In this document: one piece after another, positions 10,986 to 60,711 of the stretch | How positions within the stretch are numbered: the first letter of the stretch is position 1 | Layout: every line of letters begins with the position of its first letter | Source of the DNA: Isoetes taiwanensis | Lineage: Eukaryota > Streptophyta > Lycopodiopsida > Isoetales > Isoetaceae | Assembly (NCBI GenBank): GCA_021234155.1 | Contig: JAJEKV010000806.1 | Span: 1-64,000 of the forward strand | DNA: 64,000 nt | Direction: 5' to 3' | Position numbers and translations under genes: made by a program | Notes under the pieces: generated by a model | The model's input: the letters and a program-made list of their open reading frames with translations, nothing else | The model's database searches: none | Told to the model about the DNA's origin: nothing

Positions 10986-12890
10986 CTCCATGGATGATCA
11001 TCTTGACAAATTGGAGCAATCTTTTAAAAAATGTGATGAATCTAGTATCAGTTTGAATTCAGAAAAGCGCACTTTTTGTGTCACTTCCGGCGTCTTGTTG
11101 GCCATGTTGTGAGTAAAGATAGTATTACCACGGACCCTGCAAAAACCAGTTGCGTGCTTAAAGCTCAAGCCCCTTCAAACATCAAGGAAACACGTTCATT
11201 CCTGGGCAAGGTAAACTATTATGCAACCCTCATTCCAGGACTCGCTGCCATTGCAGATCCCACTCATAAACTCACGGGTGATGAATCCTCTTGGGCTTGG
11301 AATCCCCAGGCGGATGCAGCGTTTCAGAAATTAAAGGTTCTACTCACTTAAGCTCATGTTCTTGTTCCACCACACCGGGACAAACCCTTTCATGTTCATG
11401 TTGATGTCTCGGCTTTTGCCATTAGTGCTGTTCTTTCTCAAGAATATGATTCTCATGCTGACAAGCCTATTTGATATGCCAGCGTGAAACTCAATTCTGC
11501 CAAGAAAAATTATTTTGCCACGAAACGTGAGGCGCTTGGACTCATCTTCTGTGTGCAACGATTCCGTCATTATTTGTTGGGCAGCAAAATCAAGTTCTTT
11601 GTTGATCGCAAGCATTACTCTATCCGATCAACAAAACCACGCCCACGGGCTGCATTTCATGATGGGTACTGCTTCTTCAAGAGTTTGCTCTCTTCGAAAT
11701 CATTCATAAGGCTGGTAAGTCACATGTCTTTGCCTGATTATCTTTCACGCATTCACATATATGACCCATCCATGGGTGTTTCTGATGCTTTTCCTGACGC
11801 TCAACTCTTCTTGGTCACGGCCATGCCCCATTGGTTTCATGACTATCAGCAATATCTTCTCAATGGTGCCTTTCCGTCAGAAGATCCCACGTTCTCTCCT
11901 GAGAAGCTCCGATTACGCCGTCAACAATTTCTCCATGAAGTCTGTGACTACACCATGGCCATGGTCGCGCGACATCTCTATAAGCGTGGTAAGGATATGG
12001 TTTTGCGTCTGTCTGTTCTTTCGCATGAAGTCCCAGAGATTGTTCGCCAAGCCCATAAGGGCCTTGGTGGAGGACATTTTAGTGGTGATACTACGGTACG
12101 CAAAATTCTTCTAGCTGGCTATTTCTTGCCCACGCTCTTTAAAGACGCCCACACTCATGCACGCATTTGTGATGTCTGTCAGCGTGTGGGACGACCCACG
12201 GCCCGTGACGTTCTACCCTTAACTCTAGTTGCCACGCTATTACCCCTCAACAAATGGGGAATGGATTTTATTGGGCCCATGGATCTACCAGCGCTACACT
12301 CCCGTGCTCGCTATATCCTTGTTCTCACTAATTATGTCACCAAGTGGGCGAAGGCCTGTGCACTTCTTGATAACACTGCTACCAGCACGGCGAAAGTCCT
12401 TTACATGCATGTCATTACCTGCTTCGGCTGTCCCATGGAACCTTGTCAGTGATCGAGGTGTTCAGTTTGTTAATCAGACGATCAAAGAATTGACGGACTA
12501 TTTGCATATTCATAATCGGAAGAGTACTCCTTATTATCCACAAGGAAATGGCCTTGCCGAAAGCACAAACAAGATATTTATCAACATTTTGAAGAAAATT
12601 TGTGACGCTTCTAGAACTGATTAGCAGGAAAAATTACCTACGGTTTTGTGAGCCTGCAATACTAGTTACAAGATTGCCACTGGACAAACTCCATTTAAAT
12701 TTGTTTATGGTCAAGAAGCCTTAATGCCTTTTGATATGTTTTGCCATCTCTTTGTTTCCGCATTGCTACTGTGGATGATCCTCCTGCTGCTCTTCGAGGG
12801 CATGCTTATTAATTACAACAATTAGATGAGCTTCGCAGAGATGCTTATCTTCGAGTTCTTGCTGGACAACAATTAAGAAAATCCGGGGGA
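10986..12890 (+). pseudogene. Ty3/Gypsy pol remnant (RT end, RNase H, integrase)
   Basis: Translated segments show the end of the reverse transcriptase (FCVTSG...LLGHVVSKDSI, then SFLGKVNYY), RNase H (FHVHVDVSAFAISAVLSQ; KNYFATKREALGLIFCVQRF; HYLLGSKIKFFVD), an HHCC-type integrase zinc-finger region (HKGLGGGHFSGDTTVRKIL ... ICDVCQRVGR) and the integrase core (WGMDFIGPM; LVSDRGVQF; YYPQGNGLAES). Stops interrupt it near 11348 and 11473, a frameshift lies near 12435, and further stops follow 12620. The RT palm, protease, gag and both LTRs were not found. This is an old solo fragment. Confidence 0.92.
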
Positions 12891-13216: not shown

Positions 13217-16200
13217 TCAAGATAGATTTATGTGTGTCTCTGTAAGTTCAAGCATAAATCTCCCACATCCGTCTTTTGATTCAGGAGGGCAAAAACATAT
13301 TCCTTCCATTCTTGATTTGCCCCTATCACCAACAAGGATGCCTTTGAATAAAATATCTGGTATATTTGCCTTGTACCTCACTAGGATGGAAGCTTGAACG
13401 CTATCATGTTCCGGAAATAAAAAACCTATATGTGATAAAGAGATTAAGGACGTGCTTCAAGAGGAGAGAAATGACGTGGTCAAAATTCCCTAAAGTTGTT
13501 GCTTACCTTGGCAAAAGAAGTCCCCATGCGCGTCCTGGCCACTACCTTGTACTTGACCTTCATTTCTTAAGAACAATACTTTGGCACTAATTGAGATGGC
13601 ATTGGAACTTATTATATATTGCCCTTCCCACTTTTGCATCTCATACACTTGTTTAGAATTTGTACCTGTTTGTGCTTCTATCAACATAAATTGCCCTCTG
13701 CCACTGGGATTTATATTGCAATGCCTCAAATGCCTTGTAGCCCATGTGCCATTGATCTCATTGCCATCTATAACTATGCCCTCAAACACAATGGTTATAT
13801 TCTCCGAGTTATACAGTTTACTGAATTTTATGTTATTCTGTTTATCCAATTCCCCTGAAAATGAAACTACTTAATGGGATAAAGAACATTAACTTGAAAC
13901 TTTTATATATACAAGAACTTATCGTGGCCAAGGCCGCGAAACGTTTCTCTTTCCCAACATTTTGTATACACTCGTAACCTTATTCAGATCATATGATAGA
14001 TAATTCTTAATATTATTTCAATTTTATGGGATGTTTGGAAGGACACTAAAGCCCTTAGGCTAGGTCCAAGTGTGACAAATTTGAGGAAACCCTTGAAGCC
14101 TACCGTTGAAATCAAGAATTTCCGATATAGAAAAAAATTCTCAAGGAGGTTTTTTTGATAAAAAAAACTATATAATTCTCCACATTTTTCGGCTTGAAGT
14201 TCGTTTTTTTTTGCTTAATGCTCCTCGCTAGCTTAAATTTCGTAAGAAATTTACCTTTTTTAGTATAGAGTTTGTCTGAGTTTGTAGCTCTCGGCTAGGC
14301 CTATCTTAGAATTGTTGCCAAAAAATTTGAGGGCGCACCTCCCAATTTGGAAGAGCTTTCCTTTGTTCCACGTTTAGCATCTTTGGGTGTCTCAACTCAA
14401 TGATTAGCATCTTTGGGTGTACCATCTTGAACCAATTTATCATGTATACCTTGAAGAACTTGCTCATGAAGGGCACCAATGCCCCTAAATTAAAAATTCT
14501 CGGAAGAGCGGGGAGGATATTTCACCCAATTTCATACCTAGATAAATGCTGTAATTCTTTTTCCCTTCTAAGATTGTTAGAAAATCGCCATGTGACCTCC
14601 ATCACAATCACTCAAATTTAGCAAATAACCTTCCCCCTCTTCATTACATATGGTGAATGCTTCCTCGGAGGACATTTCTTAACGACCTGGCCAAGCACTT
14701 ACCCCAATGATGCCCTACCAGGGTTGCCCTTAAGGCCAAATTTGTCTAAGCATAATTTAGAAGGTCGGGCGAATAATAGAGTTGCAAGATTAGTTATGCT
14801 GGCGAATGTTTTCTAGACATGAATGTTTTTTATAGAAATCTAGGCGAATCATAGCCAATATTATTTTGCCAAGATTTAAGTGTCTTTATTTTTTCAAGTG
14901 CAATTTCTGTGGTGAAATTTTATTCACTAGCATCCATATTTAATCAAGGTTACAAATACATTATAACTATAGTTGCATGATGCAATACCACAACTTAACC
15001 TTTGCAAATGAGTAGATAAAACAAATCTATTAAAAGGGAGGTCTGTAAAATGCTCTCCAGTGCATCCTTAGAAGTATTTGAAACACAATAGCTACAAAAA
15101 TAACTCTTAAAATTATCATATGTATATGGATGGATATGAAGAATAGATTGGATCATGAAGAAAGCCTAGAATATTAGGCGATTCCTTCAGAAATATTTGA
15201 GAAGGAGGGTAGAGGATAAGGCGAATCCATAGTTATGACACTTAGTGGATGTGGCGAATTTTCAAGCGGAGTGAGATTTGTTTGTAGAAAAGTTGGCTAA
15301 TTTTATTTTTTTCATGTATAACGAGCCCTATTAAACCATAGCATCAAAATTTCTCGATACCCTTCAAAAATAGCCTTTTGGCGAACTTTCGTCCTTAAGG
15401 GCTACCCTGTGCCCTACACGGGAACATTACCCCTATCAAAAGGACCAACAACTAAGACCACACCATTTGATAAGAAATGTAGTGTTTGATGGCAGAGATC
15501 TAAGATGGGACACTTGTGAATGATCTCCCACTATGGAGTTCATATTTTGGAATGGAGCCACTTATCCCAAACCCACCCCCACATTCTTCTACTAGGTGAG
15601 TAGCCATAGCTATAGGGAGCAAATTCCAAATAATCACTTATCCCAAACCCAGCCTCCCCACATTCTTCCTAGTAGCCATAGCTAAAAGGAGCAAATCCTA
15701 AAGAATGTCCTTGGGAAATCCAATAAGGGTGGAACTATAAAGAGAATATTAGCATGGCAAATTTTAAAGGGTGCTTGATGGAGGACTGATTTTCCAAAAA
15801 TGTGGTTGATAAATGGGAAGCAGACTCAACTCAGAGTGGATAACCTACATTTATGGCCATATGGTTTGCTGGTTATATCTAACAGGTCCTAACAAGGGGT
15901 GAGGTCATTTAATAATCTCTTCTGTAAGGTGAAATAGAAATTTACCTAGGAGATAACAAATTAGCAAAAGCAAAACACGTCTAGCTGCTGGATGAGCCAT
16001 TTGTTAGCTTTTTCGTCACTCGTAGCTATGGCAGGCAGGGGAGAATGGGGCCTTCTCGTGAGCCAAGCTCATTCAATTGCACTGAAAACAATACTGCCAT
16101 ATGCATTAAGCTTTGATGCAGAAATAGCAGAATGATTCACCACCGGAGCAACCTTTTATGCTATCGTGCTTTTAGGATTGAATGGACAAAGCACAGCGAT

Positions 16201-18314
16201 TTGGAGCTCTTGCATGAATCGCCTGCGGCAGAACGTACTGTGTCTTACAGGTGCGCAGGTGTGGCAGTAATAAAAAATGCTTTGAAAAAAGGCTTTGTTG
16301 GTTGGTGTTGTCTGTAGTTCAGAACAGAGTAGCTCAGAACAGAGTAGCCGGCCGTTTCTTCTTAGCTTAGCTTGGCTTAGCTAGCTATGGAGCCATGCGG
16401 CGCCGTCATCTTGCGCCTTGTCTCCCTTGCTTTTCAAGGGTACCATAACCCCGCTTGCCCAGACTTTGGCTATGGCGATATAGTGTAGTCCACCCTTCTT
16501 CCCTTCCATTCAGTCTTTGTTGCCCTCTTTTAATTTCTTTCAAGCTCGCCTTTAGAAAATGCATGTTGGGGCTGCTTGAAACTGATTGAGTCGGTGGAAT
16601 ATTAAGATTGAACTGCGGTTTCTTTGTGTGTTTTAGTCGATTATTTCATGTTCTCTTAGTTCCGTTATTGGATCCAACAGAAGCGGATTTGGTAGTTTTG
16701 ACAGGAACTAAAATTGGAGTAATACTTCCCCTGAATATTGCTCGGAGAATGCAGCATTCTGACGGGCGACGAAATAAAACAGAAACAGCAGAATTTTGAA
16801 TCAAACAGCTCAAATTCGAAGACCCAGATCAAAATCATCACAGGCAAGAACAGAGAACAGATTTAGAGAAAGCAGCTCCAATTCCAAAAGAAATTTGGTC
16901 CGAAAAGAAATTTCGGATCAAACAGCTCAAATCCGAAGGACCCAATTCAAAATAATAGACCATACCGGATTCCAATGCCGCCGCCCTGTTGTAGAGGAGC
17001 TCCAGCTTGAATCAGTGCAAACAGGCGTGTAAATGCTGTGCAGATCTAAATTCCCAAATTCTTCATTCGATGCATAATCCATCACCTTTTTGGAACTCTA
17101 GACATTTTCAGGCTTTTCCAATCGCGGCATCCGCTTCCATGGCTATGGCAGTGCAAGGTTCAGTGAAGCATCTATATGCCATTGAATTCTGCGACGTCTC
17201 CAACACAAAGTGCTGACGTCATGGTCATTTTTTACTCTCTAGGTTCCATAGACAGGTGTCAATACCAGAGCTGCTCAAAAAAATATTACACCCTCAAACA
17301 AAAACAAAAAAGAAGACTGCATTATATATGTTAGGAAAAAGGGGGAGTCTACCTAGATACCTTCCAATATAAAACTTCCGGTGTCGTCTGTGCCATATCC
17401 ATGACAAGTTCCTTGAGGTGCAACATACATCTCTAAGTTGAGCTCGGCTATGATGTCGCCATCCATGTGCCCTTTCCATTGGTAAACCCTTGAAGCTTGT
17501 GATATCTACAAGGAAATCATTCTAGATAAGACAAGGTAATATTTTTATTTTGCAAAAGACCTGGTCAAACCTGGTGAGGACTAGAACAGATAGGTCGCTG
17601 TTCGAGACCAAGAGCGTCTTGGATGTGCCAAGCAATAGACCGAGTAGGGTCTTTGAAGATATGGCTGATCTCGTAGGGGGTAACAATTCCTTGGGTTCGA
17701 GATCTCATCTCAATCTGAGCTTTAGCATGGGGATCATCCTTGAAATAGATATTTGCGATACCTGGATGTTCATCGAAAAATTGATCCCAAAACAGCTCCC
17801 ATCTGATCTCGTGTGGATTGCACAAGCGGTATTTCCAGAACCTGCGAAGGTCCATGTGGTTGATGAGCTGATGAGGGCCAGAGGAGCTGGTTAGATGCAC
17901 CAAATCAGCGGTAAATTTGGTAACAACTCGGTCAAGCTGCTGCTCATAATCGCTGAGTGTGGATTGGTCTTCAGCCGCGCGGAAGGCCCGAGTGACAAAG
18001 AAGCTTTTCTGCCGCTTCTGGGCGAACCTCCACAGCCGATTCACAATGTCTGTTACTGCCTCCACATCAGCCACAAACATTGGTTTATTTTTTAGCTCTG
18101 CAGCATGCACTTGTATCATGCCTGCTACACCGAATGCCTTGTTAGCCATATTCGCCACTGATTCCCTCTGTTCCTTTGCCAGCTGATGACCCTCCACAAG
18201 TACTGCCGTGACCTTTATAAGTGATGCCACTGCTTGTATTGCCATATTTGCAGGCCAGGGCGTTATGCTTGCCCATGAAGACGCATCATTGCCAATTGCT
18301 ATCCAACCTCTCAT
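13217..18314 (-). CDS. Four-exon gene: predicted four-helix bundle, EF-hand-like segment, two repeated modules
   Basis: I do not recognise this gene by name. Exons on the minus strand are 17571-18314, 17361-17505, 13507-13854 and 13217-13425, with GT-AG introns in phases 0, 1 and 1; joining them gives 481 codons without a stop. An in-frame TAG lies two codons before the ATG. Residues ~25-145 look like an amphipathic helical bundle of the HeLo/MLKL/Cbl-N kind. Residues ~155-235 (FW at 159-160, RWELFW at 171-176, GIVTPYEI at 209-216) resemble the degenerate EF-hand that follows the bundle in Cbl. Two ~114-residue modules follow, each with WxG (258, 372), GxGxDxxGxF (284-293, 400-409) and a later FxG (320-322 in the first) and G-rich strand. 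The modules look beta-rich. No signal peptide or membrane segment is evident. Membrane-active or signalling roles are possible by analogy only. Confidence 0.7.
13855..17360 (-). other. 3.5-kb intron 2 of the unknown gene
   Basis: It is bounded by GAAG|GTATCT and TTTTCAG|GGG, both phase 1. The interior is AT-rich with no convincing exon. It includes a direct duplication at about 15560-15690 (units beginning CTTATCCCAAACCCA) and a short direct repeat near 14340-14420. At 16797-16960 there is a pair of GATCAAACAGCTCAAAT-like units. Parts of 16.0-17.2 kb could be an inserted element, but I saw no termini. Confidence 0.55.
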
Positions 18315-18318
18315 ATTC

Positions 18319-18490
18319 TCCTAGTCTCTAATGGACTCTAGAATTGCCTCAAATCCTCTTTAGCCTTCCCTACTAGTCTCTATAGACTCCAGAATTGCCC
18401 CAAATCCTCTTTAGCCTTCAGGATTTAGCCTTCCCTACTAGTCTCTATAGACCCCAGAATTGCCCCAAATCCTCTTTAGCCTTCCCTACG
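18319..18490. repeat. Three-copy tandem repeat upstream of the unknown gene
   Basis: Units of about 55-75 bp carry CTAGTCTCTATAGACTCCAG and CCCCAAATCCTCTTTAGCC. The first copy starts within a few bases of the gene's ATG, so the array occupies its 5' UTR or core promoter. Confidence 0.75.
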
Positions 18491-26198: not shown

Positions 26199-29100
26199 GC
26201 AGCCCTCAGGTTTCTTGTATGGAATGTGCATGGTTTGTGCGAAGATACCATTTTGAGCAATATCCAAATGTTTCAGGGATGTGATGTTCTAGCTTTCACT
26301 GAAACTTGGGAACATGAAAATAGTAGACTTTTAGAAATCCCAGGTTTTTGTCTGTTGGACTCAGTCTGGAATGAATTGGGCAATAGCAAAAGGGGATGGG
26401 GTGGAGTTGCTTGCTATGTGAAAAAGGATCTACAAAAGACAGTTTCAGTTGTTAGCAAAGATAAATTCTCACAGTATATTTGGCTGAAGTTAAAGGATAA
26501 CTCTGTTGAAATTTATGTGGCACTTGCTTATTTTGCTCCTCTTGAGCCTTATCCAAAGACTGTTTATTCTCTGGATGGCTTATGTGTCGTGATCCTTTTA
26601 TACATCTTGCAGCCGACATCTCAACATATAGAGAGTCTGGTATGGTGTTTATTGCAGGAGACCTTAATGGTCGTGTGAGCAATAGGCAAGCCTTTCTTCT
26701 ATCTGAGGAAGAGAACCCATTATGGCTAGTAGAACAATCAGATTTACAAGCTAGTTGGCCTCGCAAGACAGCAGATACGGTTATTAATAAGATGGGCAAG
26801 CATATAATTGCATTATGTGAGGCGTTTAATTTCATTATGTACAATGGGATTACTAGATTTCCCAACTCTAGTGGATTCACGTACTACCAATCAAATGGTA
26901 GCAGCACAATCGATTACCTTATTGGTGATCCAAATGCATTACATCTAGTGACGAATTTGTCCATGTTAGATAGGAATATCGATTCTGATCATATTCCTTA
27001 TGTATTTACATTGGATGTAAAAGCTAACAGAAAAGTGCGGGCAAAGTATTCACCACCAAGGCTGAAGCTATGTTATAGACGTGCAACTGATTATGAAAAA
27101 GCCTTAGATGCCAAGTTGATGGAGTTACAGTGGCAAGGGTCACTAGAAGACAGAAGCAAAACTCTTATGAATCTCACTTTGCAGGCAGCACAGTCCATAT
27201 TTGGGCTTACCAAGCCAAAGAGACAGAAATGGGCAAATAGTAAGTGGTTTGTCCTGGATTGCAGATCAGCAAAAGAGACATGGAAACAATCCAAGGATCC
27301 TGATAACTTTGTTCATTATAAAAAGCTTATCAAGTTAAAAACGAGCTTGGATGAGAAAACATACTGAAATGCTTATGCATGAAATGGAGATAGATCCAAA
27401 AAGGTTTTTTAACCGGTCTAAAAAGCAAAACTTGATGGGTGATATTTCTAGAAAGGAATTGCTGGCATGGGTACAAGATTTATACAATACGCCACATGTG
27501 GACCAGATGGTTTGTGAGGGAGATGCCACTCCAATTTTTACAGGACATAATGTACATGAAGCCTTGAAGGCTATGGGCAATGGCCGGGCTAGTGACTCTA
27601 ATGGTATGTCAGCTGAATTGTTCAAATGGGGAGGTGCGTCACTTCATGCCCTCTTAGCTGAAATCTGTAATGAAGCTCTTTTAACAGGACATTTTCCACA
27701 AGATTGGTGCTTGAATAGAGTTATCCCGATATATAAATCTCGAGACAGAGATGAAATTAAAAACTACCGCACAATTCTTGTGGGTAGTATATTTGCTAAA
27801 CTATTTGCTGCAATGGTTGAAAAAAAGCTTACAGATTGGGCGGACTCTCATGCTGGGCGAGCAATTGGGCAAGCAGGTTTTAGAGAAGCATACTCTACCC
27901 TTGACCATCTGGCTACTTTGAGAGTGTTGGCTGAGGGCGCAAAGGGATCAAATAATAAGAGATATATTGCCTTTATAGATCTAGCGAAAGCATTTGACAA
28001 GGTAAAAAGAAAAGATCTGGCCTCGCGGTTAGAACTGTTGCAGGTACCATTGGAAATTAGACAAGCGGTTGCTTGTCTTTATAACAAAGTCCTGGTTGAG
28101 CTCTCTTTTCCTTTTACAGGACCTGAATGCATTGATAATACCATTGGGGTTAAACAGGGGTGTCCTTGTTCGCCAACGCTTTTTGGGTTATTCATAGATG
28201 ATTTGGAGGGATGGTTGGCGAGACTTGGTGGAGTTGGAGCAAAACTAGGTAAGTATATTGTGCAATTATTACTTTTTGCGGGTGACATAGTTTTGATTTC
28301 TAAAACTGCCAATGGGCTTCAACAACACTTGGATGTGCTACAGGAGTTTTGTGAGCATAATAGTATGCAAATTAATGCAGCTAAATCCAAGGTAATGATT
28401 GTTGGTGGCCGTGGACTCAACCATTTTACAATGGAGGGATTCCTTTGGAATGTGTAAAAGAATATAAGTATCTCGGCATAGATGTTACAAATGACTATAG
28501 GTGGACCTGTAGCAGCAGGAAGAGAGCCTCCGGGGGCTTAGGGCCTATTATAATATGATGCATCAATGCAAAATGAATAATTTTGAGCAATCGGAATCCG
28601 AGGAAGTTGCTTTTCAAGATCTGTGTGAAGCCAGTAGTTTTGTATGGCAGCCCAATCTGGGGGCCCGGACTTTCTAAAAAATGATGGCAAGAGATTGAAA
28701 AAAAATCAAAAAGGTTTCTCCTCTGGGAATTGGGTGTGAAATCTCAAACACTGTATTGCATGCTCCTTGCTGAAGCAGGCTTACTGCCCTTAGAGGTAGA
28801 GGCGCTTTGCAGAACCATCACCTATGTAAATAAAATTTTGGTCATGGACTTGGATAGATGGCCCAGGTTGTCATTTGAAGCGATAAGAGAAAGAGGATGG
28901 CAGGTTGATATAAGAAGATGGGCAGCTAGACGGCTTGGACATGGGATGTGGCCAACGTCAACAAAGTTTAAGGAAGTACATGAACAAGTCACATGCATAA
29001 CAGTTAAAAAAATGTGGCAGTTAAATGCAGACGGTGATACGAAGAAAAGGTTCTATCTAGCAGAGATAAATGATCTGAATGATTATACCGCTCAAGCTTA

Positions 29101-34073: not shown

Positions 34074-36295
34074 GGAATTCGGACTCTAAGGGTACTGGCT
34101 TGGAATGTACATGGGCTATCTCAAGCCAAGGTACATGCTTGCGAACATGTCTGGAAGCAAGCAGATATTTTATCGTTTTCAGAAACTTGGGAACACCAAA
34201 TGCGAGGTTTACCACAGATTGAGGGTTTTGATATCTTAGGATCAGCCTGGAATACCAAGAAGATCGGTGTGGGACGGGGGCATGGTGGAATTGCAGTTTA
34301 TATTTGCAGTGACTTAGGATGTATCGCCAAGATCTTTAAAAAACACAGACATAATCAGTTCATATGGATTGAGATGCTTCTTAGTAACAAGAAGATATAT
34401 TTAGCCAGCTTCTATTTTGCTCCCTTAAATATGAAGTTATATCAGAGCAAAGACATGAATAAGGATAGTCCTCTTCATGACTTAACCACGGATATCATTG
34501 AATTCAACAGACTAGGAGAAGTCTTGATTATTGGAGACTTTAATGCTAGAACTAATGGACTGCAGGCAATCTCATATGAGAATATAGGAGACCACCTGTT
34601 AGAAGAATATAGTGAGCATGATTATATCAGATCTGCAATTGACAAGGTGAAGAATAACATGGGGGATTATTTGGTGGAGCTTGCAACAATATGTGATTTA
34701 AGAATCTTGAATGGCATCGCACAGTTTGAAAATACGGATGGATTCACATGTTTCACTCCCACAGGAGCTAGTGCAGTGGATTATATACTGGCCAACAAGC
34801 AAAATTCGGTGCATCAGTTTGTGATTTTGGAAAAAGAAGTGGAATCTGATCATGCGGGTTTATGGTTTGAGTTGAGCGAACAGGTGCACATACAACCCGT
34901 TATGAGAACTTTTACCTCTAAAATCAAATTGGACTTTAAACAGAGAGGGAAATATCAGAGACATTTGAACTCTATGCTTGCAAACTTGCAGTGCATGGGT
35001 GATCTCGAGACAGATTCCCAAAATTTGACCAAACTAATGTTAGAGGTAGCCAATCTGGGATTTGGTATCACTACAAAAAGACAAAGTGGACGCCCTTGCA
35101 ACAGTTGGTGGGATGATGACTGCAAGAGGGCGAAGGCATGTTTGCCAAAAAACTGCAGGGTAAAACCCAAATGGTACAAGAAACTCATCAAAGAGAAGAA
35201 GAGCCATTTTCATGCAAAAAAACAATCCGAGCTTACCCATACACTTCACGAGAATTCCAAATTTTTCTGGAAAAAACTGCAAGGTAAACAGGCTGACACG
35301 GATTTGAAGGTAGAAGATCTTCTTTCCTTGGTTCAGGGTATTTATTTCAATGCGGAAGCTGGTGAAATGCCAATAACCAGCTTTACGAAAGAGATCTTTG
35401 ATGAGGGAGACGTGGAGGCTCAACTTAAACGAATGAAAAATGGGAAAGCTCCAGATTTGATGGGTTTGTCTGCTGAATTGATGAAGTGGGCAGATGGCAA
35501 ATTGATACATCAAATAAAAGACCTTATGAACATGGCTGTACAGCGTGGTTTACCGAAATCTTGGAGGGAATGCATGATTGTTCCAATACACAAGTCTGGG
35601 AGCAAGAAGGATATGCATAATTACCGTACCATGATGATCGGTAGCATGTATTCTAAACTTTTGGGAGGCCTATTAGAGCAAAAAATTAGTGAATGGGCAG
35701 AACGTCATGATAAGAGAGCTCATTATCAGGCAGGTTTTAGAAGAAAACACAACACTTTGGACCATCTCCTTACTCTAAGAGTCCTTTTTGAACAAGCCAA
35801 GAAACCGAGGCAAGCTCTTTACTTGGCCTACATCGATTTCTCGAAGGCCTTTGATAGCGTACCTCGAGACAAACTGTGGTTGAGGATGGAACAGCTTGAT
35901 GTTCCACCTGTTTGGAGAGGGGCGATAACGATTATATGAAGAGGTGCTAGCCAAATTGTCTCTGAGAGGTACCACATGAAATTCGAAGCACAATGGGAGC
36001 TCGGCAAGGATGTCTTATCACTATGTGGGCCTGCTTTCAAGCGTTAAAATATACTTCCTTCCTTCCTTCCTTCTATATAGATGAGTTGGAGGAGTGGCTT
36101 CAGAGTAGAGGGCAGGCTGGAGCCAAGTTAGGAAGTTCTGTAATACAATTACTATTATACGCGGATGATGCAGTGTTGATGGCAGATTCCCCAGAAGACC
36201 TACAAGAGCATTTAGACAATCTGAGTCTTTTTTGCACATCCAGAAGCATGAAAATTTCAAATAAAAGCATTATTCTTTTGTGGTTTTTTTTCTAG
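34074..36295 (+). pseudogene. LINE 2 ORF2: APE endonuclease and RT, frameshifted
   Basis: The reading frame is open back to at least 34074 and gives RVLAWNVHGL and SETWEHQ. The GDFNART block and ESDHAGL of the endonuclease follow, then RT motifs (NGKAPDLMGLSAELMKWADG; AYIDFSKAFDSV). A frame break near 35935 precedes GARQGC. The expected SPTLFGLY stretch has been replaced by a (CCTT)n insertion at 36055-36075. The catalytic YADD is intact at 36158-36169. The frame becomes non-homologous after SRSMKIS. Confidence 0.92.
36055..36075 (+). repeat. (CCTT)n microsatellite inside the LINE 2 RT
   Basis: About five CCTT units sit between the RT QGC block and IDELEEW, where family members have a conserved SPTLFG stretch. 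This is an in-place expansion or replacement. Confidence 0.75.
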
Positions 36296-39998: not shown

Positions 39999-48755
<8,757 letters not shown>

Positions 48756-49793: not shown

Positions 49794-50090
49794 CTAATTC
49801 GATGCAAAATTGGATTGAGGGGGCTGGGATGGATCTGTCATGGGGAGGTGAAAGGGGGGATAGGAAAGGCCCAAATTCTGGTGGGCGGAGAAGGAGAAAA
49901 AAGGAAAAAGGGGATACAGTGGGCTGGAAAAGGAAGAACTGGGCAGATCGGGGAAGTGGGTAAGGGAAAAACGGCTATGGAGGTCGAGAAAACTATGTCT
50001 GATTACGGCGAGGATGGCCGGAAGTGTAGAACAAAGGCGAGGCGCAGAAGGAGAGAGGAAGAAGAATAGGCTTCGCATACACGGGGTCCA
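49794..50090 (-). other. CHR5-like 5'-UTR exon 1 with a possible upstream ORF
   Basis: A pyrimidine-rich, leader-like stretch runs from the predicted start site to a donor AATTAG|GTTTGT at 49794/49793, leaving a 1037-bp UTR intron to the coding exon at 48756. A 94-codon open frame begins at 50078 and stops exactly at the donor (TAG). If transcription starts upstream of 50078 this would be an upstream ORF. The exon end is inferred. Confidence 0.5.
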
Positions 50091-50113
50091 AAAAAATAAA
50101 ACCCTCCCCCTCG

Positions 50114-50121
50114 CCTTTATA
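50114..50121 (-). promoter_or_regulatory. TATA box of the CHR5-like gene
   Basis: TATAAAGG on the minus strand, in a GC-richer promoter patch (50095-50220). It lies about 30 bp upstream of a pyrimidine-rich leader, so initiation near 50085-50090 is expected. Confidence 0.5.
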
Positions 50122-50229
50122 CCCTAGAATTCGCGATTCCTAAAAGCCTTTACCTTTCCGATCCCAGGTTGCCTCCCTGGGTCGCCGGCATGTTCCTTCC
50201 CGGCATCTATTCCGGCCCGGAATTCTGAT

Positions 50230-51180
50230 GTCTACGTGGAGATTTGAAATTTGACTCTCTTGCTTGACCCATTAGCACCATTTATTCCTGTAGCTTGTGA
50301 ACCCCCTCTTGAGTTCTTCATCCTTTTTATTTTTATTTCCCTTTTCTATTCTTTTTCCCTAGTTGTTTTGTCTTCGTAAATCACCATGTGGTTGAAATGC
50401 CTATCTTTTTATGTCAAAATTCATTTTGAATCATTTTTGGGCTTGAATTTTTGGTGGCATGCTTGTATCTTTGCCACAATCATCCAATTTCAACCCTTTG
50501 GTGGCTTGGTGGCTTATGTCAACTAGGTGTCGGGTTTCCATAGGAACTCAGTAACGACAACACCACTCGAGGCTAACGCCCACGTGTTGCCGCGCTACTA
50601 GTTTTCCATAGCAAACCCCCTCCATCCAGGCAGTTACTTAGCACATAGTTTACTGGTTCTGTTATATGTAATGCAATAACATCTCCATAGCCGATCTTGC
50701 TCGCCACACATCCTTCGCATGTCTGGACATGAGTTTCAGTATGTGCTCTTTCGAGAACAGCCACCTGTTTTTATCTAGGCTTGGAAATAAAGTCATTGCC
50801 CTTCAAATTTTATTACCCCATTTTTCTTTCTCATCACATCTTTTGCACAATTCAACATAAGTATATTCTTTTATAATGACTATTCTTATGTTACCATACA
50901 TTTCTACCATTCGTACCGTTGTTTGGTTGCATATAAAGGTCAAACTTTGCACCCAATGAAATTCTTAAACATGATGATCAATCAGTTCTTCTATAATAAA
51001 CAATTTATCTTACCTCGACAATAATTCCTATTAATGGTTAGTGATTACTCTATCTATTTAAATGCCCCTATATTTTGTGTATTTTTACAAAATAGCCCTC
51101 ATATATCTTCTTATATAATAAAATTATCCTGTAAGTCTTTATATAATAACGTAAAAATACTATCTATCTATCTATCTGTA
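50230..51180. other. Intergenic between the CHR5-like promoter and the repeat region
   Basis: AT-rich, with no gene seen. It ends with a duplicated GTAAGTCTTTATATAATAA and a short TATC run (51130-51205) that lead into the first CT tract. Confidence 0.45.
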
Positions 51181-51299
51181 AGTCTTTATATAATAAAAAC
51201 TAGAAAAGGGGCTGAGCGGCAGTGGAACTTTCTTTCCCCCAACTCCTTTCCTCGTGTCGGCCGGCCATTATAAGCCTCGATTTTGGGGCCACCCGTGTG

Positions 51300-52139
51300 C
51301 TTTTATCTCCTATCTCTCTCGTCACCTCTCTTCTCTCTCGTCTCTCTCCTCTCTTTCTCCTCATCTGTCTTCTCTTCTCTTTGTCTTTACCCTCCCCCTC
51401 TCCCCCTCTCTCTCCTCTCTCTTTTTTTCCCTCTCTCTCTTCCATATCTCCTCCCTCTCTCTCTCTCTATCTCCTCTCTCTTTCTGTTTCTCCCCTCTCT
51501 CTCTATCTTTCTCTCTCTTTCTATTCCTCTCTCTCTCTTCTCTCTCTTCTCTTTCCTCTTCTCTTTCGGCTTCCATAGGCCTCACGTGGTTCCTTCGATC
51601 TGGACCCACCCATGCCCTTCTTCTTCTTTTGTATTATTCCCTCATTTCGGTGACCTTAGGCCTCGCCTCGATTTGGACCCCATTAACACTTTTGGAAGGC
51701 CCTTCCTTTTGGCGGCATCTCTCTCTCATCTCTCTCCTCTTTGGATCTCTCTCTCTCCTCTCCCCTCTTGTATTAGTTCTTCCTCTTCTCCTTCTCCTCT
51801 ACCCATGATCATCTCAATATCTCTCCACCACATTCTCTCTTTTGACCTCTTCTCTCCCCCTCTCTCTCTTCTCTCAAAAAGTCTCTTCTCTCCCCTCTCT
51901 ATTTTCTCCCTCCCTCTCTTCTCTCTCTCCTTCCCTCTCTCCTCCCATGAGCTCTCTCCCTCCTCTCTCTTCCTCTCCTTTCTCTTTTTCCTCTCTCTCT
52001 CCTCTCTCTCTCTCTCCTCTCTCTTTTCTCTCTCTCTCTGTCTCTTTCCTCTTTCTCCTCTCTCTTCTCTCCTCTTCTCTCTTTTAGACTCTCTTTCCTC
52101 TCTCTTCTTCTCTCTCCTTCCTTTCTCTCTTCTTCTTCC
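51300..52139 (+). repeat. CT-rich tract I (two blocks)
   Basis: Blocks at ~51304-51575 and ~51718-52139 consist of (CT)n, CTTT and CTCC variants, with the pyrimidines on the plus strand. About 140 bp of ordinary sequence separates them. The Ser/Leu-rich open frames across them are artefacts of the repeat. Confidence 0.9.
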
Positions 52140-52199
52140 TTTACTACCACTTCTAAAAAAAGTATCACTCATGAGGGAGAACCTTTACCAATTCTTTTA

Positions 52200-53086
52200 T
52201 TTTCATCTATGAGGATCTTACTCACATTCTTTCACTCCATGGTATTTCTCAGTCTTCTTTCCTTCTCCCACCTCTTGCTCAACCCTCTATTCCAATCATT
52301 CATGAGTAACATACTCACACATGCCCATGAGGGCCACATCTTTGTCTCTACTACCAATTCTAAATTATGTTAATCCTAAAGTTTATCACCCATGTGAAGC
52401 TTACACACACACATCATACCCATCACACTTACTACCAATTTCAAATATTCTATTTTGAGCATTTGCAAGGTTTGAAGAAACTTTCTACTTTTTAGACTGG
52501 GGTGCTTCTAGAGCATAGGTGGTTGCCCTATAGCATTTGGAACACTCCAGAACATTCTATTTTGAGTTTTTGCAAAGTTTTAAAAACTTTTACGTGTTTT
52601 AGACTACTATACTTTCTATTTTTAGGTGAGGATGCTTACCCCTAGAGCATCTGGAACATTCTAGGACATTCTATTTGAGAGTTTTTACAAAGTTTTAAAC
52701 AAACTTTCTATTTTTAGATTGAAACTTTCTATTTTTTAGATTAAGGTGCATTTGCAAAATTTCAAAAACTTTCTATTTTTAGGTGAAACTTTCTATTTTT
52801 AGTGAGGTGCTTACCATGAGCATCACGAAACATTCGAACATTCTATTTTGAGCATTTGCAAAGTTTCAAAAACTTTCTATTTTTAGGCAAAACTTTCGAG
52901 GGTGCTTACCATGAGCACACTGGAACGATCCACAACATTCTATTTTGAGCATTTGCAAAGTTTCAAAAAAACTTCTATTTTTAGACATTTGAAATTTTCT
53001 ATTTTTTAGACTGAGGTGCTTACTCATTCTAGGACATTACAAAAGATTCTAGAACATTCTAGAACATCCTAGAGTATCCTTGAATT
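52200..53086 (+). repeat. AT-rich minisatellite, first block
   Basis: Irregular ~80-bp units share AACATTCTATTTTGAGCATT, TGCAAAGTTTCAAAAA and CTTTCTATTTTTAGACTGAG. This copy is more diverged than the later blocks. It ends in TTCTAGAACATTCTAGAA at 53047-53064. Confidence 0.85.
53047..53064. promoter_or_regulatory. Perfect heat-shock-element-like run
   Basis: TTCTAGAACATTCTAGAA gives four alternating modules TTC-GAA-TTC-GAA with 2-nt gaps, the consensus recognised by heat-shock factors. Equivalent copies end the minisatellites at 55753-55770, 58466-58483 and 60410-60427. Function in this setting is not shown. Confidence 0.55.
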
Positions 53087-53165
53087 AATTAGGCCCGTTT
53101 CCATGGCCTTAACTAAGCATGGACTTCCCTATTCTTTCTCTCTTCCCTCTCTCACTTTCTCTTTT

Positions 53166-53217
53166 TGGTCTAGTGGTAAGGGTGGGGGTTTGGGGGCAAT
53201 GTCCGGGGTTCAAGTCC
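53166..53217 (+). mobile_element. tRNA-like (SINE-type) head, unit 1
   Basis: Box A TGGTCTAGTGG (53166-53176) and box B GGTTCAAGTCC (53207-53217) are 30 bp apart. They match the internal RNA polymerase III promoter boxes (TGGCNNAGTGG, GGTTCGANTCC) at tRNA spacing. The flanks do not close an acceptor stem, so this is a tRNA-derived SINE head rather than a tRNA gene. Confidence 0.65.
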
Positions 53218-53415
53218 ACGGTTTCTCAAAAAATTTTGTCCACCAAACTTTCTATTTTGAGAGGCCAAGGCCCACGGGGCGGAGCATCAAGCATCTCGTG
53301 GCATTCTATCCTCCACCATTTGGATGGTTTCAAAAAAGACTTCTATTTCCGGACTCACCGGACACTATTTTTCTTATTATTATCTCTCTCTCTCTATCTA
53401 TCTATCTATCTCTCT

Positions 53416-53455
<40 letters not shown>

Positions 53456-54727
53456 CCCTTTTTCCTTCTCTCTCTCCTATCTTTCTCCTCTCTCTCTATT
53501 TCTCCCCTCTCTCTATCTTTTCTCTCTCTTTTCTAAAAGAACCTCTTCTCCATCTCTCTCTTCTCTCTCCTCTCTCCCTCTCTCCTATCTCTTCCCTCAT
53601 CTTTCTCTCTCCTCTTTTCTCTCTATCTTCTCTCTCTCCCTGTCTCTCTCTATCTCTCTTTCTCTCCCCCCTTTCTCTCTTCTCTCTCCTCTCTCTCTCC
53701 TCTCCTCTCTCCTCTCTCTCTCCTCTCTTTTCTCCTATCTCTCTCCCCTCTCACTATTTCTCCCCTCTCTCTCTATCTTTCTCTCTCTTCTGTATTTCTC
53801 TCTCCCTCTCTCCTCTATCCTCTCTCTTCCCTCATCTCTCTCTCCTCTCTTCTCTCTATCCTCTCTCTCTTTCTCTCTCTTCTCTTTCCCCCCTCTCTCC
53901 TCTCTCTTCTCTCTCCCCTCTCTCTCTCTCTTTCTCTCTCTTCTCTATTTCCTCTCCTCTCTCTCCTCTCCCTCCTCTCCCTCCTCTCTTTTTATCTTTC
54001 TCTCTCTTCTCTATTTCCTCCCCTCCCTCCCCTCTATCCCCTCTCTCCCCTCTCTCTCTATCTTTCTTTCTCTTCTCTATTTCCTCCCCTCTCTCTCCTC
54101 TCTTCCCGTTCTCTGCTCTCTCTTCTCTCTCATCTCTGCTCTCCTCTCTCTCTCCTGCCAACGGCCAAGATCGTGCCGCATGGCAACATCCTACCCTTTC
54201 ATAGGCATGGGAGACATGTATATAGGCTGGGCGACAACCTTAACTATGTTTAAGCCAGCCTATTTTGTTGAAGAAGAAATGCTTGGCATAGTGGATGGAA
54301 TGGGGGGGTTTGGGGGTAGACCCGGGTTCTAAAGTATCACCCATGTGAAGCTTACACACACCCATCATACCCATCACACTTACTACCAATTCCAAAGCAT
54401 CACCTCCAGAATATTCTATTTTGAGCATTTGCAAGGTTTCAAGAAACTTTTTACTTTTAGACTGAGGTGCTTCTAGAGCATAGGTGATTGCTCTATAGCA
54501 TCTAGACCACTCTAGAACATTCTATTTTGAGTTCTTGCAAAGTTTTAACAAACTTTTCTATTTTTAGGCTGCAAGGTACTTTCTATTTTTTAGTGACATG
54601 CTTACCCTAGAGCATCAGGAACATTCTAGGACATTCTATTTGAGTTTTTACAAAGTTTAAGCAAACTTTCTATTTTTAGACTGAAACTTTCTATTTTTAG
54701 ACTGAGGTGCTTACCCTTGAGCATCTG

Positions 54728-54745
54728 GAACATTCCAGAACATTC
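54728..54745. promoter_or_regulatory. Perfect heat-shock-element-like run inside minisatellite
   Basis: GAACATTCCAGAACATTC is GAA-TTC-GAA-TTC with 2-nt gaps; an identical run is at 57421-57438. Many neighbouring units keep two or three modules. Confidence 0.5.
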
Positions 54746-55790
54746 TATTTTGAGCATTTGCAAAGTTTCAAAAAACTTTCTATTTTTAGACTGAAACTTT
54801 CTATTTTTAGAGTGAGGTGCTTACCCATGAGCACCAGGAACATTCCACAACTTTCTACACCTACTACCATGCAAGTCTATATACACACATGCCCTACTAC
54901 CACTTCTAAAGTATCACTCATGAGGAGAACACTACCAATTCCAAAGTATCATCTATGAGGATCTTACTCACATTCTTGCCTCCATGGTATTTCCACAGGT
55001 CTTATTCACACATCTTTGCTCAACCCTCTATTCCAATCATTCATGAGTAACATACTCACACATGCCCATGAGGCCACATCTACGACCTCTACTACCAATT
55101 CTAAAGTATGTTAATCCTAAAGTATCACCCATGTGAAGCTTACACACACACATCATACCCATCACACTTACTACCAATTCCAAATATTCTATTTTGAGCA
55201 TTTGCAAGGTTTGAAGAAACTTTCTACTTTTAGACTGAGGTGCTTCTAGAGCATAGGTGGTTGCCCTATAGCATTTGGAACACTCTAGAACATTCTATTT
55301 TGAGTTTTTGCAAAGTTTTAGCAAACTTTTCTGTTCTTAGACTACTATACTTTCTATTTTTAGACTGAGATGCTTACCCTAGAGCATCTGAAACATTCTA
55401 GGACATTCTATTTGAGTTTTTACAAAGTTTAAGCAAACTTTCTATTTTTAGATTGAAACTTTCTATTTTTAGACTAAGGTGCATTTGCAAAATTTCAAAA
55501 AACTTTCTATTTTTAGACTGAGGTGCTTACCCATGAGCATCTGAAACATTCCAGAACATTCTATTTTGAGGATTTGCAAAGTTTCAAAAAACTTTCTATT
55601 TTTAGACTGAGGTGCTTACCCATGAGCACCTGGAACATTCCACAACATTCTATTTTGAGCATTTGCAAAGTTTCAAAAAAACTTCTATTTTTTTACTGAA
55701 ATTTTCTATTTTTAGACTGAGGTGCTTACTCATTCTAGGACATTACAAAAGATTCTAGAACATTCTAGAACATCCTAGAGTATCCTTGAA

Positions 55791-56098
55791 TTAATTAGGC
55801 CCCAGCCTTAACTAAGCATGGACTTCCTATTCTTTCAAGAAAAGACTGGTTGGTCTAGTGGTAAGGGTGGGGGGTTTGGGGGGCAATGTCCAGGGTTCAA
55901 GTCCCTGGTAAAGCAAAAAAATTTTGTCCACCAAACTTGGGAGCTTTTGAGAGGCCAAGGCCCACGGACGGCCCAGATCAAGCCACGTGGCGCATCCTCC
56001 ACCGTTGGATGGTCGTGGAAGACTCACGGACTCACAGACTCACGGACACTATTTTCTTATTATTATCTCTCTCTCTCTATCTATCTATCTATCTCTCT

Positions 56099-56138
<40 letters not shown>

Positions 56139-58503
56139 CTTTTTCCTTCTCTCTCTCCTATCTTTCTCCTCTCTCTCTATTTCTCCCCTCTCTCTATCTT
56201 TCTCTCTCTTTTCTATTCCTCTCTCTCCCTCTTCTCCCTTCTCTCTCTTCTCTCTCCTCTCTCCTCTCTCTCCCCTCTCTTCCCTCATCTTTCTCTCTCC
56301 TCTTTTCTCTCTATCTTCTCTCTCTCCCTGTCTCTCTCTATCTCTCTTTCTCTCCCCCCTTTCTCTCTTCTCTCTCTCTCTCTCTCTCCTCTCCTCTCTC
56401 TCCTCTCTCTCTCCTCTCTTTTCTCCTATCTCTCTCCCCTCTCACTATTTCTCCCCTCTCTCTATCTTTCTCTCTCTTCTGTATTTCTCTCTCCCTCTCT
56501 CCTCTATCCTCTCTCTTCCCTCATCTCTCTCTCCTCTCTTCTCTCTATCCTCTCTCTCTTTCTCTCTCTTCTCTATTTCCCCCCTCTCTCCTCTCTCTTC
56601 TCTCTCCCCTCTCTCTCTCTCTTTCTCTCTCTTCTCTATTTCCTCTCCTCTCTCTCCTCTCCCTCCTCTCCCTCCTCTCTTTTTTATCTTCTCTCTCTTC
56701 TCTATTTCCTCCCCTCCCTCCCTCTATCCCTCTCTCTCTCTCTCTCTCTATCTTTCTTTCTCTTCTCTATTTCCTCCCTCTCTCTCCTCTCTTCCGTTCT
56801 CTCTCTCTCTCTTCTCTCTCATCTCTCTCTCCTCTCTCTCTCTCTCTTAGCATTTCCTAGATCTCTACCATGGCACACATCCCCTACCCTTTCATAGGCA
56901 TGGGAGACATGTATATAGGCTGGGCGACAACCTTAACTATGTTTAAGCCGCCTATTTTGTTGAAGAAGAAATGCTTGGCATAGTGGATGGAATGGGGGGG
57001 TTTGGGGGGGTAGACCCGGGTTCTAAAGTATCACCCATGTGAAGCTTACACACACCCATCATACCCATCACACTTACTACCAATTCCAAAGCATCACCTC
57101 CAGAATATTCTATTTTGAGCATTTGCAAGGTTTCAAGAAACTTTTTACTTTTAGACTGAGGTGCTTCTAGAGCATAGGTGATTGCTCTATAGCATCTAGA
57201 CCACTCTAGAACATTCTATTTTGAGTTCTTGCAAAGTTTTAACAAACTTTTCTATTTTTAGACTGCCGTACTTTCTACTTTTAGACTGACATGCTTACCC
57301 TAGAGCATCTGAAACATTCTAGGACATTCTATTTGAGTTTTTACAAAGTTTAAGCAAACTTTCTATTTTTAGACTGAAACTTTCTATTTTTAGACTGAGG
57401 TGCTTACCCTTGAGCATCTGGAACATTCCAGAACATTCTATTTTGAGCATTTGCAAAGTTTCAAAAAACTTTCTATTTTTAGACTGAAACTTTCTATTTT
57501 TAGACTGAGGTGCTTACCCATGAGCACCAGGAACATTCCACAACTTTCTACACCTACTACCATGCAAGTCTATATACACACATGCCCTACTACCACTTCT
57601 AAAGTATCACTCATGAGGAGAACACTACCAATTCCAAAGTATCATCTATGAGGATCTTACTCACATTTACTGCACTCCATGGTATTTCACAGTCTTATTC
57701 ACACATACTGCTCAACCCTCTATTCCAATCATTCATGAGTAACATACTCACACATGCCCATGAGGCCACATCTACGACCTCTACTACCAATTCTAAAGTA
57801 TGTTAATCCTAAAGTATCACCCATGTGAAGCTTACACACACACATCATACCCATCACACTTACTACCAATTCCAAATATTCTATTTTGAGCATTTGCAAG
57901 GTTTGAAGAAACTTTCTACTTTTAGACTGAGGTGCTTCTAGAGCATAGGTGGTTGCCCTATAGCATTTGGAACACTCTAGAACATTCTATTTTGAGTTTT
58001 TGCAAAGTTTTAGCAAACTTTTCTGTTCTTAGACTACTATACTTTCTATTTTTAGACTGAGATGCTTACCCTAGAGCATCTGAAACATTCTAGGACATTC
58101 TATTTGAGTTTTTACAAAGTTTAAGCAAACTTTCTATTTTTAGATTGAAACTTTCTATTTTTAGACTAAGGTGCATTTGCAAAATTTCAAAAAACTTTCT
58201 ATTTTTAGACTGAAACTTTCTATTTTTAGACTGAGGTGCTTACCCATGAGCATCTGAAACATTCCAGAACATTCTATTTTGAGGATTTGCAAAGTTTCAA
58301 AAAACTTTCTATTTTTAGACTGAGGTGCTTACCCATGAGCACCTGGAACATTCCACAACATTCTATTTTGAGCATTTGCAAAGTTTCAAAAAAACTTCTA
58401 TTTTTTTACTGAAATTTTCTATTTTTAGACTGAGGTGCTTACTCATTCTAGGACATTACAAAAGATTCTAGAACATTCTAGAACATCCTAGAGTATCCTT
58501 GAA
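55791..58503 (+). repeat. Higher-order repeat unit 2 (~2.7 kb)
   Basis: The same order as unit 1: head at 55851-55904, CT tract ~56065-56848, minisatellite ~57030-58480. Its minisatellite and head match unit 3 almost base for base, so the duplication is recent. Confidence 0.92.
55851..55904 (+). mobile_element. tRNA-like (SINE-type) head, unit 2
   Basis: Box A at 55851-55861 and box B at 55894-55904, with a G-rich interbox (GGGTGGGGGGTTTGGGGGG) that could also form a quadruplex. Confidence 0.65.
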
Positions 58504-58803
58504 TTAATTAGGCCCCAGCCTTAACTAAGCATGGACTTCCTATTCTTTCAAGAAAAGACTGGTTGGTCTAGTGGTAAGGGTGGGGGGTTTGGGGGGCAAT
58601 GTCCAGGGTTCAAGTCCCTGGTAAAGCAAAAAAATTTTGTCCACCAAACTTGGGAGCTTTTGAGAGGCCAAGGCCCACGGACGGCCCAGATCAAGCCACG
58701 TGGCGCATCCTCCACCGTTGGATGGTCGTGGAAGACTCACAGACTCACGGACACTATTTTCTTATTATTATCTCTCTCTCTCTATCTATCTATCTATCTC
58801 TCT

Positions 58804-58847
<44 letters not shown>

Positions 58848-60448
58848 CCCTTTTTCCTTCTCTCTCTCCTATCTTTCTCCTCTCTCTCTATTTCTCCCCT
58901 CTCTCTATCTTTCTCTCTCTTTTCTATTCCTCTCTCTCCCTCTTCTCCCTTCTCTCTCTTCTCTCTCTCTCCTCTCTCTCCCCTCTCTTCCCTCATCTTT
59001 CTCTCTCCTCTTTTCTCTCTATCTTCTCTCTCTCCCTGTCTCTCTCTATCTCTCTTTCTCTCCCCCCTTTCTCTCTTCTCTCTCCTCTCTCTCTCTCCTC
59101 CTCTCTCTCCTCTCTCTCTCCTCTATTTTTTTCTCCAAATCTCTCTCCCTCTCACTATTTTCCCCTCTCTCTCTATCTTTTCTCTTTTCTTACATGTATT
59201 TCTTCTCCCTCTCTATCCTCTATCCTCTATCCTCTCTCTTAATATCTCTCTCCTCTCTTCTCTCTATCCTCTCTCTCTTTCTCTCTCTTCTCTATTTCCC
59301 CCTCTCTCCTCTCTCTTCTCTCTCCCTCTCTCTCTCTCTTTCTCTCTCTTCGCTATTTCCTCTCCTCTCTCTCTCCCCTCCCCTCCCTCCTCTCTTTTTA
59401 TCTTTCTCTCTCTTCTCTATTTCCTCCCCTCCCTCCCCTCTATCCCCTCTCTCCCCTCTCTCTCTATCTTTCTTTCTCTTCTCTATTTCCTCCCCTCTCT
59501 CTCCTCTCTTCCCGTTCTCTGCTCTCTCTTCTCTCTCATCTCTGCTCTCCTCTCTCTCTCCTGCCAACGGCCAAGATCGTGCCGCATGGCAACATCCTAC
59601 CCTTTCATAGGCATGGGAGACATGTATATAGGCCTGGAGCAGCAACCTTAACTATGTTTAAGCCGCCTATTTTGTTGAAGAAGAAATGCTTGGCATAGTG
59701 GATGGAATGGGGGGGTTTGGGGGGGTAGACCCGGGTTCTAAAGTATCACCCATGTGAAGCTTACACACACCCATCATACCCATCACACTTACTACCAATT
59801 CCAAAGCATCACCTCCAGAATATTCTATTTTGAGCATTTGCAAGGTTTCAAGAAACTTTTTACTTTTAGACTGAGGTGCTTCTAGAGCATAGGTGATTGC
59901 TCTATAGCATCTAGACCACTCTAGAACATTCTATTTTGAGTTCTTGCAAAGTTTTAACAAACTTTTCTATTTTTAGACTGCCGTACTTTCTACTTTTAGA
60001 CTGACATGCTTACCCTAGAGCATCTGAAACATTCTAGGACATTCTATTTGAGTTTTTACAAAGTTTAAGCAAACTTTCTATTTTTAGACTGAAACTTTCT
60101 ATTTTTAGACTAAGGTGCATTTGCAAAATTTAAAAAAACTTTCTATTTTTATTATGAAACTTTCTATTTTTAGACTGAGGTGCTTACCCATGAGCATCTG
60201 AAACATTCCAGAACATTCTATTTTGAGGATTTGCAAAGTTTCAAAAAACTTTCTATTTTTAGACTGAGGTGCTTACCCATGAGCACCTGGAACATTCCAC
60301 AACATTCTATTTTGAGCATTTGCAAAGTTTCAAAAAAACTTCTATTTTTTTACTGAAATTTTCTATTTTTAGACTGAGGTGCTTACTCATTCTAGGACAT
60401 TACAAAAGATTCTAGAACATTCTAGAACATCCTAGAGTATCCTTGAAT
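58504..60448 (+). repeat. Higher-order repeat unit 3 (~1.95 kb, internal deletion)
   Basis: Head at 58564-58617, CT tract ~58769-59562, minisatellite ~59740-60440. It lacks the central ~770 bp of the minisatellite present in unit 2 (including the second TACACACACATCATACCC block). This looks like an unequal exchange or slippage between sub-repeats. Confidence 0.9.
58564..58617 (+). mobile_element. tRNA-like (SINE-type) head, unit 3
   Basis: Box A 58564-58574 and box B 58607-58617. Identical to unit 2 across head and body. Confidence 0.65.
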
Positions 60449-60711
60449 TAATTAGGCCCCAGCCTTAACTAAGCATGGACTTCCTATTCTTTCTCCCTTT
60501 GGTTGGTCTAGTGGTAGGGGTGGGGGTTTGGGGGCAATGTCGGGGTTCAAGTCCCTGGTAAAGCAAAAAAATTTTGTCCACCAAACTTGGGAGCTTTTGA
60601 GAGGCCAAGGCCCACGGACGGCCCAGATCAAGCCACGTGGCGCATCCTCCACCGTTGGATGGTCGTGGAAGACTCACAGACTCACGGACACTATTTTCTT
60701 ATTATAATAGA
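60449..60711 (+). repeat. Partial unit 4: head and body only
   Basis: A tRNA-like head (60504-60554) and body match units 2-3 up to CACTATTTTCTTATTAT. Then, instead of the (CT)n/(TATC)n tract, the sequence changes to AATAGACTAGAAAGGGCGG. Confidence 0.85.
60504..60554 (+). mobile_element. tRNA-like (SINE-type) head, unit 4
   Basis: Box A 60504-60514 and box B 60544-60554. The preceding bases differ from units 2-3 (CTCCCTTTGG), resembling unit 1 more. Confidence 0.6.

Follow-up and report, generated by a model that had tools for sequence, protein, structure and literature searches.

The DNA analysed here is a 64,000-nt stretch of the Isoetes taiwanensis genome (hereafter the window), which belongs to a contig of 87.6 kb, and positions within it are those of the whole window. 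On its minus strand lies a four-exon gene (13217..18314) which, judged from the sequence, is intact, belongs to a small plant gene family that has no name and is not a chance join. The joined exons comprise 1446 nt, corresponding to 481 codons followed by TGA with no internal stop, and the three introns (65, 3506 and 81 nt; phases 0, 1 and 1) all have GT-AG borders. These results bear out an earlier note on this DNA, which had described at the same coordinates an intact gene of four exons joining without a stop, with the same codon number and intron phases and a second intron of 3.5 kb. Exon 1 (17571..18314) contains the start codon and encodes aa 1-248, which include a predicted four-helix bundle (approximately aa 15-143; 17886..18272) and an EF-hand-like segment (approximately aa 145-235; 17610..17882) delimited by family alignment and profile search. 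It is followed by intron 1 (17506..17570), exon 2 (17361..17505), which encodes a linker and the first half of module 1, intron 2 (13855..17360), exon 3 (13507..13854), which encodes the second half of module 1 and the first half of module 2, intron 3 (13426..13506) and exon 4 (13217..13425), which encodes the second half of module 2 and ends with the stop codon. Intron 1 and exons 2 and 3 were placed by reading the splice sites, exon 3 also from the duplication and alignment described below. Repeat comparison showed that a 61-nt repeat, present three times on the minus strand (18308..18484; one copy only 62% alike), spans the start codon and the sequence immediately upstream.

The two C-terminal modules, each of about 110 residues, were compared with each other. 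Local alignment of aa 255-365 with aa 366-481 gave a score of 58, compared to a mean of 26.0 (standard deviation 4.5) for shuffled sequences, only one of 2000 of which reached 58. The homologous glycine codons G297 and G413 are split by introns 2 and 3, respectively, both in phase 1. The beta-type duplication proposed in the earlier note is thus confirmed by the alignment score and the equivalent intron positions. Searching the genome (G000; 1.66 Gb) revealed a paralogue (L032; contig C1034, 34.15 Mb) that is 46-48% identical to the window gene over exon 1. Its exon 1 ends at the same point (..SSHQ, then GT), its intron 3 has the same position and phase, and its stop codon lies at the equivalent place. 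Module 2 alone was found in the paralogue, with no module 1; intron 2, behind which the paralogue has no counterpart, is supported by the homology of the two modules. Between the two genes, nonsynonymous (dN) and synonymous (dS) divergence over 238 codons of exon 1 was 0.37 and 1.31, a dN/dS of approximately 0.28, and this ratio shows apparent long-term constraint on exon 1; over 102 codons of module 2, with about five paralogue codons omitted from the aligned row, dN was 0.35 and dS 0.75. A chance joining of open frames is ruled out because the modules are repeats with equivalent intron positions, the paralogue agrees and exon 1 is constrained. The codable look of the frame downstream suggested that exon 4 might end at a premature stop, an idea rejected on the position of the paralogue's stop.

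With the 481-residue protein as query, 30 places in the genome matched at E values up to 10. Outside the window gene there were 26, of which 11 fall in transposon-borne fragments, and the last two had E values of 0.07 and 8. Queries from two divergent members gave 19 and 16 matches, their own loci and the window gene counted. What the other family members have in common is the N-terminal half, at an identity of about 20-37%, and most aligned rows carry a signature, located in the EF-hand-like segment, of GPH.LI, then FW, then W..FW. At the level of sequence, therefore, the N-terminal half is what defines this family, which is local to the present genome search. In two relatives (L043 and L046) a hydrophobic C-terminal tail replaces the beta modules, with best 19-residue hydropathy values of 2.0 and 2.5, compared to 1.68 in the window protein. 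In these relatives (L043, 4318-5064 and downstream sequence; L046, 4289-4918) the tail has the motif EGGxQF.LA.F.AW.CIM..LYL; in L043 it is encoded by its own open frame, 3′ to the main frame, to which it is presumably spliced. An exon 1 scan of viral contigs found no relatives, and in the literature searched (titles and abstract openings) no description of a bundle joined to duplicated modules was found. Candidate NLR or kinase partners downstream of divergent relatives were rejected after the open reading frames adjoining 10 loci had been read by eye, outside Pfam.

A fragment of the gene also occurs in mobile DNA. Five dispersed copies of a repeat of about 4 kb (L033-L037; contigs C1102, C101, C1055 twice and C1056) contain sequence that corresponds to exon 3, intron 3 and some of exon 4. 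The ends of the repeat were read against the terminal rules of Helitrons. By eye, a hairpin (GCCCAGC-AAC-GCTGGGC) lies near CTAG in three copies and is degraded, with CTAA, in L036; in these four copies the CTAG or CTAA is followed by a T, and the fifth, L033, has its aligned end elsewhere. At the other end, a TC start is readable in two of four printed ends, preceded by A in L037 and by T in L035. In sequence, then, the element looks like a dispersed repeat with Helitron-like ends that captured and multiplied a gene-family fragment.

The landmarks of the beta modules led to a bacterial set, chosen by the 14-residue motif GxGxDDxGxFxIxG, a filter which, together with the relatedness of the members, inflates the statistics of the link. 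The set contains an unnamed family of 21 single-module frames (16 in alignment A4). According to record titles available for 16 of the 21, the family occurs in Verrucomicrobia, Planctomycetes, Acidobacteria, Armatimonadetes and one uncultured bacterium. Structure modelling of the bacterial look-alike confidently predicted an eight-stranded meander barrel of avidin size. Comparison of the plant and bacterial profiles gave a probability of 89% and a score of 38, and a five-row plant alignment scored 36 against the bacterial profile, the best of 150 column shuffles reaching 20. When 132 motif-bearing frames were ranked with the plant profile, 15 family members came first and 18 of the 21 were in the top 30 (p = 5e-12). 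By eye, module 1 and the bacterial proteins show the same succession of a W-x-G start, I-x-G-x-W and G-x-F, module 2 being without I-x-G-x-W. These data suggest that the plant modules are most likely eight-stranded avidin-like barrels; the assignment is likely rather than proven because the plant-bacterial link depends largely on the motif that also picked the bacterial set. Neither the whole protein nor the module profiles matched a PDB sequence below E 0.1, and a plant module profile scan of viral and genome contigs found no relatives. The motif DNA also marks long repetitive bacterial proteins with GDDDNGxFxIxG (L054, L071, L080, L110 and others), which are unlike the barrel family and resemble cadherin-type repeats.

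To the N-terminal half the earlier note ascribed the layout of a Cbl-N or MLKL/HeLo bundle followed by a degenerate EF-hand. Its helical nature stood. The single-sequence AlphaFold model of exon 1, with a predicted local distance difference test score of 40.6, was too poor for use as fold evidence; it places helices at residues 22-40, 47-74, 81-100 and 117-143, followed by shorter ones. The PDB was searched with profiles built from eight, seven and five family sequences. The MLKL bundle was the top natural protein for the eight- and five-sequence profiles (E 0.05-0.08), outscored in both searches by a coiled coil of designed sequence, at E 0.005 and 0.015. A CBL EF-hand aligned in register with the EF-hand-like segment at only 5.5 bits, in a PDB chain that is a GST-CBL fusion; another stretch of this chain, worth 4.8 bits, adds to the chain score and is, judged by its position, presumably GST. 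A CBL label in the eight-sequence search was not counted, the aligned part being, by chain position and the GST sequence, presumably GST. No canonical Ca2+ loop was found in the window protein by regular expression, and the EF-hand label is fair only as a fold guess.

Membership of a known family was not found. Pfam, searched with the whole window protein at E values up to 10, gave no family (no MLKL_N, kinase, SH2, RING, PLAC8, U-box or Arm), and searched with exon 1 and seven relatives it gave unrelated families only, at E 0.02 or worse, including PUB2_N at 0.08. In the genome, the MLKL_N model (PF22215) matched 20 places at E values up to 10, seven of them above the cut-off, and the MCAfunc model (PF19584) matched 32, nine above the cut-off; neither matched the window locus. 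Because Pfam yielded no convincing match and both models miss the locus, the N-terminal half is MLKL/MCAfunc/Cbl-N-like, not a member. The guess of the earlier note thus keeps a weak, in-register profile backing and loses the membership. Seven places elsewhere in the genome match both models, several of them below the cut-offs (contigs C946, C963, C1007, C1042 and C926, and C1034 at 18.13 and 18.18 Mb), which fits the two domains forming one superfamily in this plant. The LEAFY SAM domain model gave four matches in the genome and none in 14 control genomes, in keeping with a land plant, as LEAFY is not known outside plants.

Taken together, these results lead us to propose, with a probability of about 0.6, that the window gene encodes an adaptor or sensor of an unnamed family, in which an MLKL/MCAfunc/Cbl-N-type bundle with a degenerate EF-hand-like segment forms a platform bearing two likely avidin-like, ligand-binding barrels. 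The bundle and EF-hand-like half, shared by the members, would act near membranes as a platform for docking or oligomerisation. The C-terminal part would be exchangeable, consisting of two modules, a single module or a hydrophobic tail, and would set the location or input of the platform. In the tail-bearing relatives it would supply an anchor; in the window gene, the two small barrels may bind a ligand or peptide and thereby control the platform. We infer the barrel fold of the plant modules, the type of the bundle, ligand binding, and a signalling or cell-death output. The layout of the protein hints at signalling or cell-death control, and a cell-death role remains an analogy. The sequence does not discriminate between three conceivable outputs: scaffolding, signalling linked to Ca2+ (the case of MCA proteins) and damage to membranes (the case of MLKL).

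Several observations weigh against this proposal. The splice sites of the window gene and the paralogue were read from DNA, not transcripts. Over 138 codons, the window gene and the captured copies differ by 33 nonsynonymous changes (about four of them beside an alignment gap) and nine synonymous ones, an approximately neutral ratio, and the C-terminal half of the gene therefore looks, in these alignments, neutral since its split from the copies. NCBIfam gave for the plant protein a best E value of 0.13, to a ribonuclease model, which was taken as chance. Masking the motif in both profiles lowered the plant-bacterial score to 13.8, below the best of 150 masked shuffles (21.4), and by whole-frame summed score a repetitive bacterial protein (L129) ranked above the barrel family. 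When the plant profile was run against 288 genomes from a single bacterial phylum, four genomes had matches at E ≤ 0.1, a chance level, and the member already known from G001 was not recovered; one match of this search was an open frame of 135 aa in G192. A bacterial query against the plant genome gave no match, and the plant module itself was also missed. Four bacterial modules had no convincing match in Pfam (best E 0.21), and two of them had none in NCBIfam.

The neutral pattern raises the possibility that the window gene is intact by luck, a recently silenced, non-functional copy whose working counterparts lie elsewhere, for example the paralogue. Between exons 3 and 4 and the captured copies, mismatches are spread about evenly over the codon positions, and the exons have diverged to the same extent as the intron. 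Of the 13 amino acid differences in module 2 that allowed comparison with the paralogue, four were assigned to the branch of the window gene and four to that of the copies (three near an alignment gap), and five could not be polarised. Present constraint on the C-terminal half is thus not demonstrable, because four polarised changes lie on the window branch, though neutral change in the copies is expected and some share of the differences must be theirs. However, the 481 codons are open, the splice sites are intact and exon 1 is constrained relative to the paralogue, and we regard silencing as unlikely. It is likewise doubtful that the modules are something other than avidin-like barrels, their bacterial similarity being a short convergent Gly/Asp motif. 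The non-significant masked comparison, the negative search in genomes not selected by motif and the PDB sequence searches speak for convergence, whereas the ranking of motif-matched frames favours the bacterial family even with a masked plant profile (p = 2e-7), though weakly, the scores lying close to zero with medians of -0.7 and -2.5 bits, and the order of the landmarks is shared by module 1 and the bacterial proteins.

Two further alternatives concern the N-terminal half. It might be a Cbl-like docking adaptor unrelated to membrane damage, as the order of bundle and EF-hand-like segment and the weak CBL alignment would suggest; however, Pfam finds neither SH2 nor RING and the alignment lies in a GST fusion chain, making this rather improbable. 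That it is a membrane-permeabilising executor of MLKL/HeLo type switched by the barrels, an analogy drawn from the MLKL match, the hydrophobic tails of two relatives and a bacterial barrel fold like that of Cap15, seems quite improbable, since the match reaches only E ~0.05, the MLKL_N model finds other genes of the genome and misses this one, and a common barrel fold says nothing on function.

The platform with ligand-binding barrels therefore remains our preferred reading. A more far-reaching version of it is very improbable: that these proteins are plant sensor-effectors with no relation to NLRs, in which a membrane-active or oligomerising bundle would be gated by tandem avidin/Cap15-like small-ligand barrels and sister proteins would swap the sensor for a tail anchor. 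If true, plants would have an equivalent of the barrel-sensor immunity effectors of bacteria. The analysis defines a plant gene family unrecognised by Pfam here, in which a bundle of a type found in signalling and cell death is joined to a module resembling an unnamed bacterial barrel domain; should the barrels bind a ligand, this family might represent a novel type of sensor in plants. The exon junctions, the paralogues and the tail-bearing relatives offer concrete handles on it.

Elsewhere in the window, Pfam identified part of a CHD1-type chromatin remodeller on the minus strand (41251-46716), with the chromodomain, SNF2 and CHD1 helix-turn-helix domains in three separate frames. On the plus strand are two reverse-transcriptase frames (27339-28454 and 34074-35936), one with an endonuclease domain and resembling a long interspersed nuclear element, and a frame with long terminal repeat-type RNase H and integrase zinc-binding domains (11475-12452). 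Positions 50000-64000 are strongly asymmetric between the strands, with a GC skew reaching -0.87, and CT-rich simple repeats there open long, spurious-looking frames. Searches with Rfam at gathering scores and for tRNAs found none in the window.

Among known systems, the bacterial single-module family shares W-x-G, GxGxDDxGxFxIxG (by selection), I-x-G-x-W and G-x-F with the plant module, but its members are short frames of 113-225 aa with no bundle seen, and the link is mostly through the motif. The bacterial barrel fold resembles those of avidin/streptavidin, the cyclic-nucleotide receptor Cap15 and the quinohemoprotein amine dehydrogenase barrels at 6-18% identity, and many unrelated barrels match too. 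Cap15 consists of transmembrane helices and a barrel and is encoded next to a CD-NTase gene; its comparison here concerns the barrel fold of the bacterial look-alike only. The Cbl tyrosine-kinase-binding region combines a bundle, an EF-hand and an SH2 domain. The window protein is like it in the order of bundle and EF-hand-like segment, with a weak in-register alignment, and unlike it in having no SH2, RING or canonical Ca2+ loop. To the MLKL N-terminal bundle it is similar in its predicted helical layout, the profile match covering the third and fourth long helices of the exon 1 model, and it differs in having no kinase or pseudokinase domain (Pfam, E up to 10) and in being missed by MLKL_N. 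From MCAfunc it differs in that the model misses the locus and that PLAC8, U-box and Arm domains are absent. MCAfunc, which occurs in plant MCA channels and some PUB ligases, is, according to PMC8049495, N-terminal, contains an EF-hand-like region and has varied partners in streptophytes, and to that extent the window protein follows the same plan, an N-terminal domain with an EF-hand-like region joined to varied partners.

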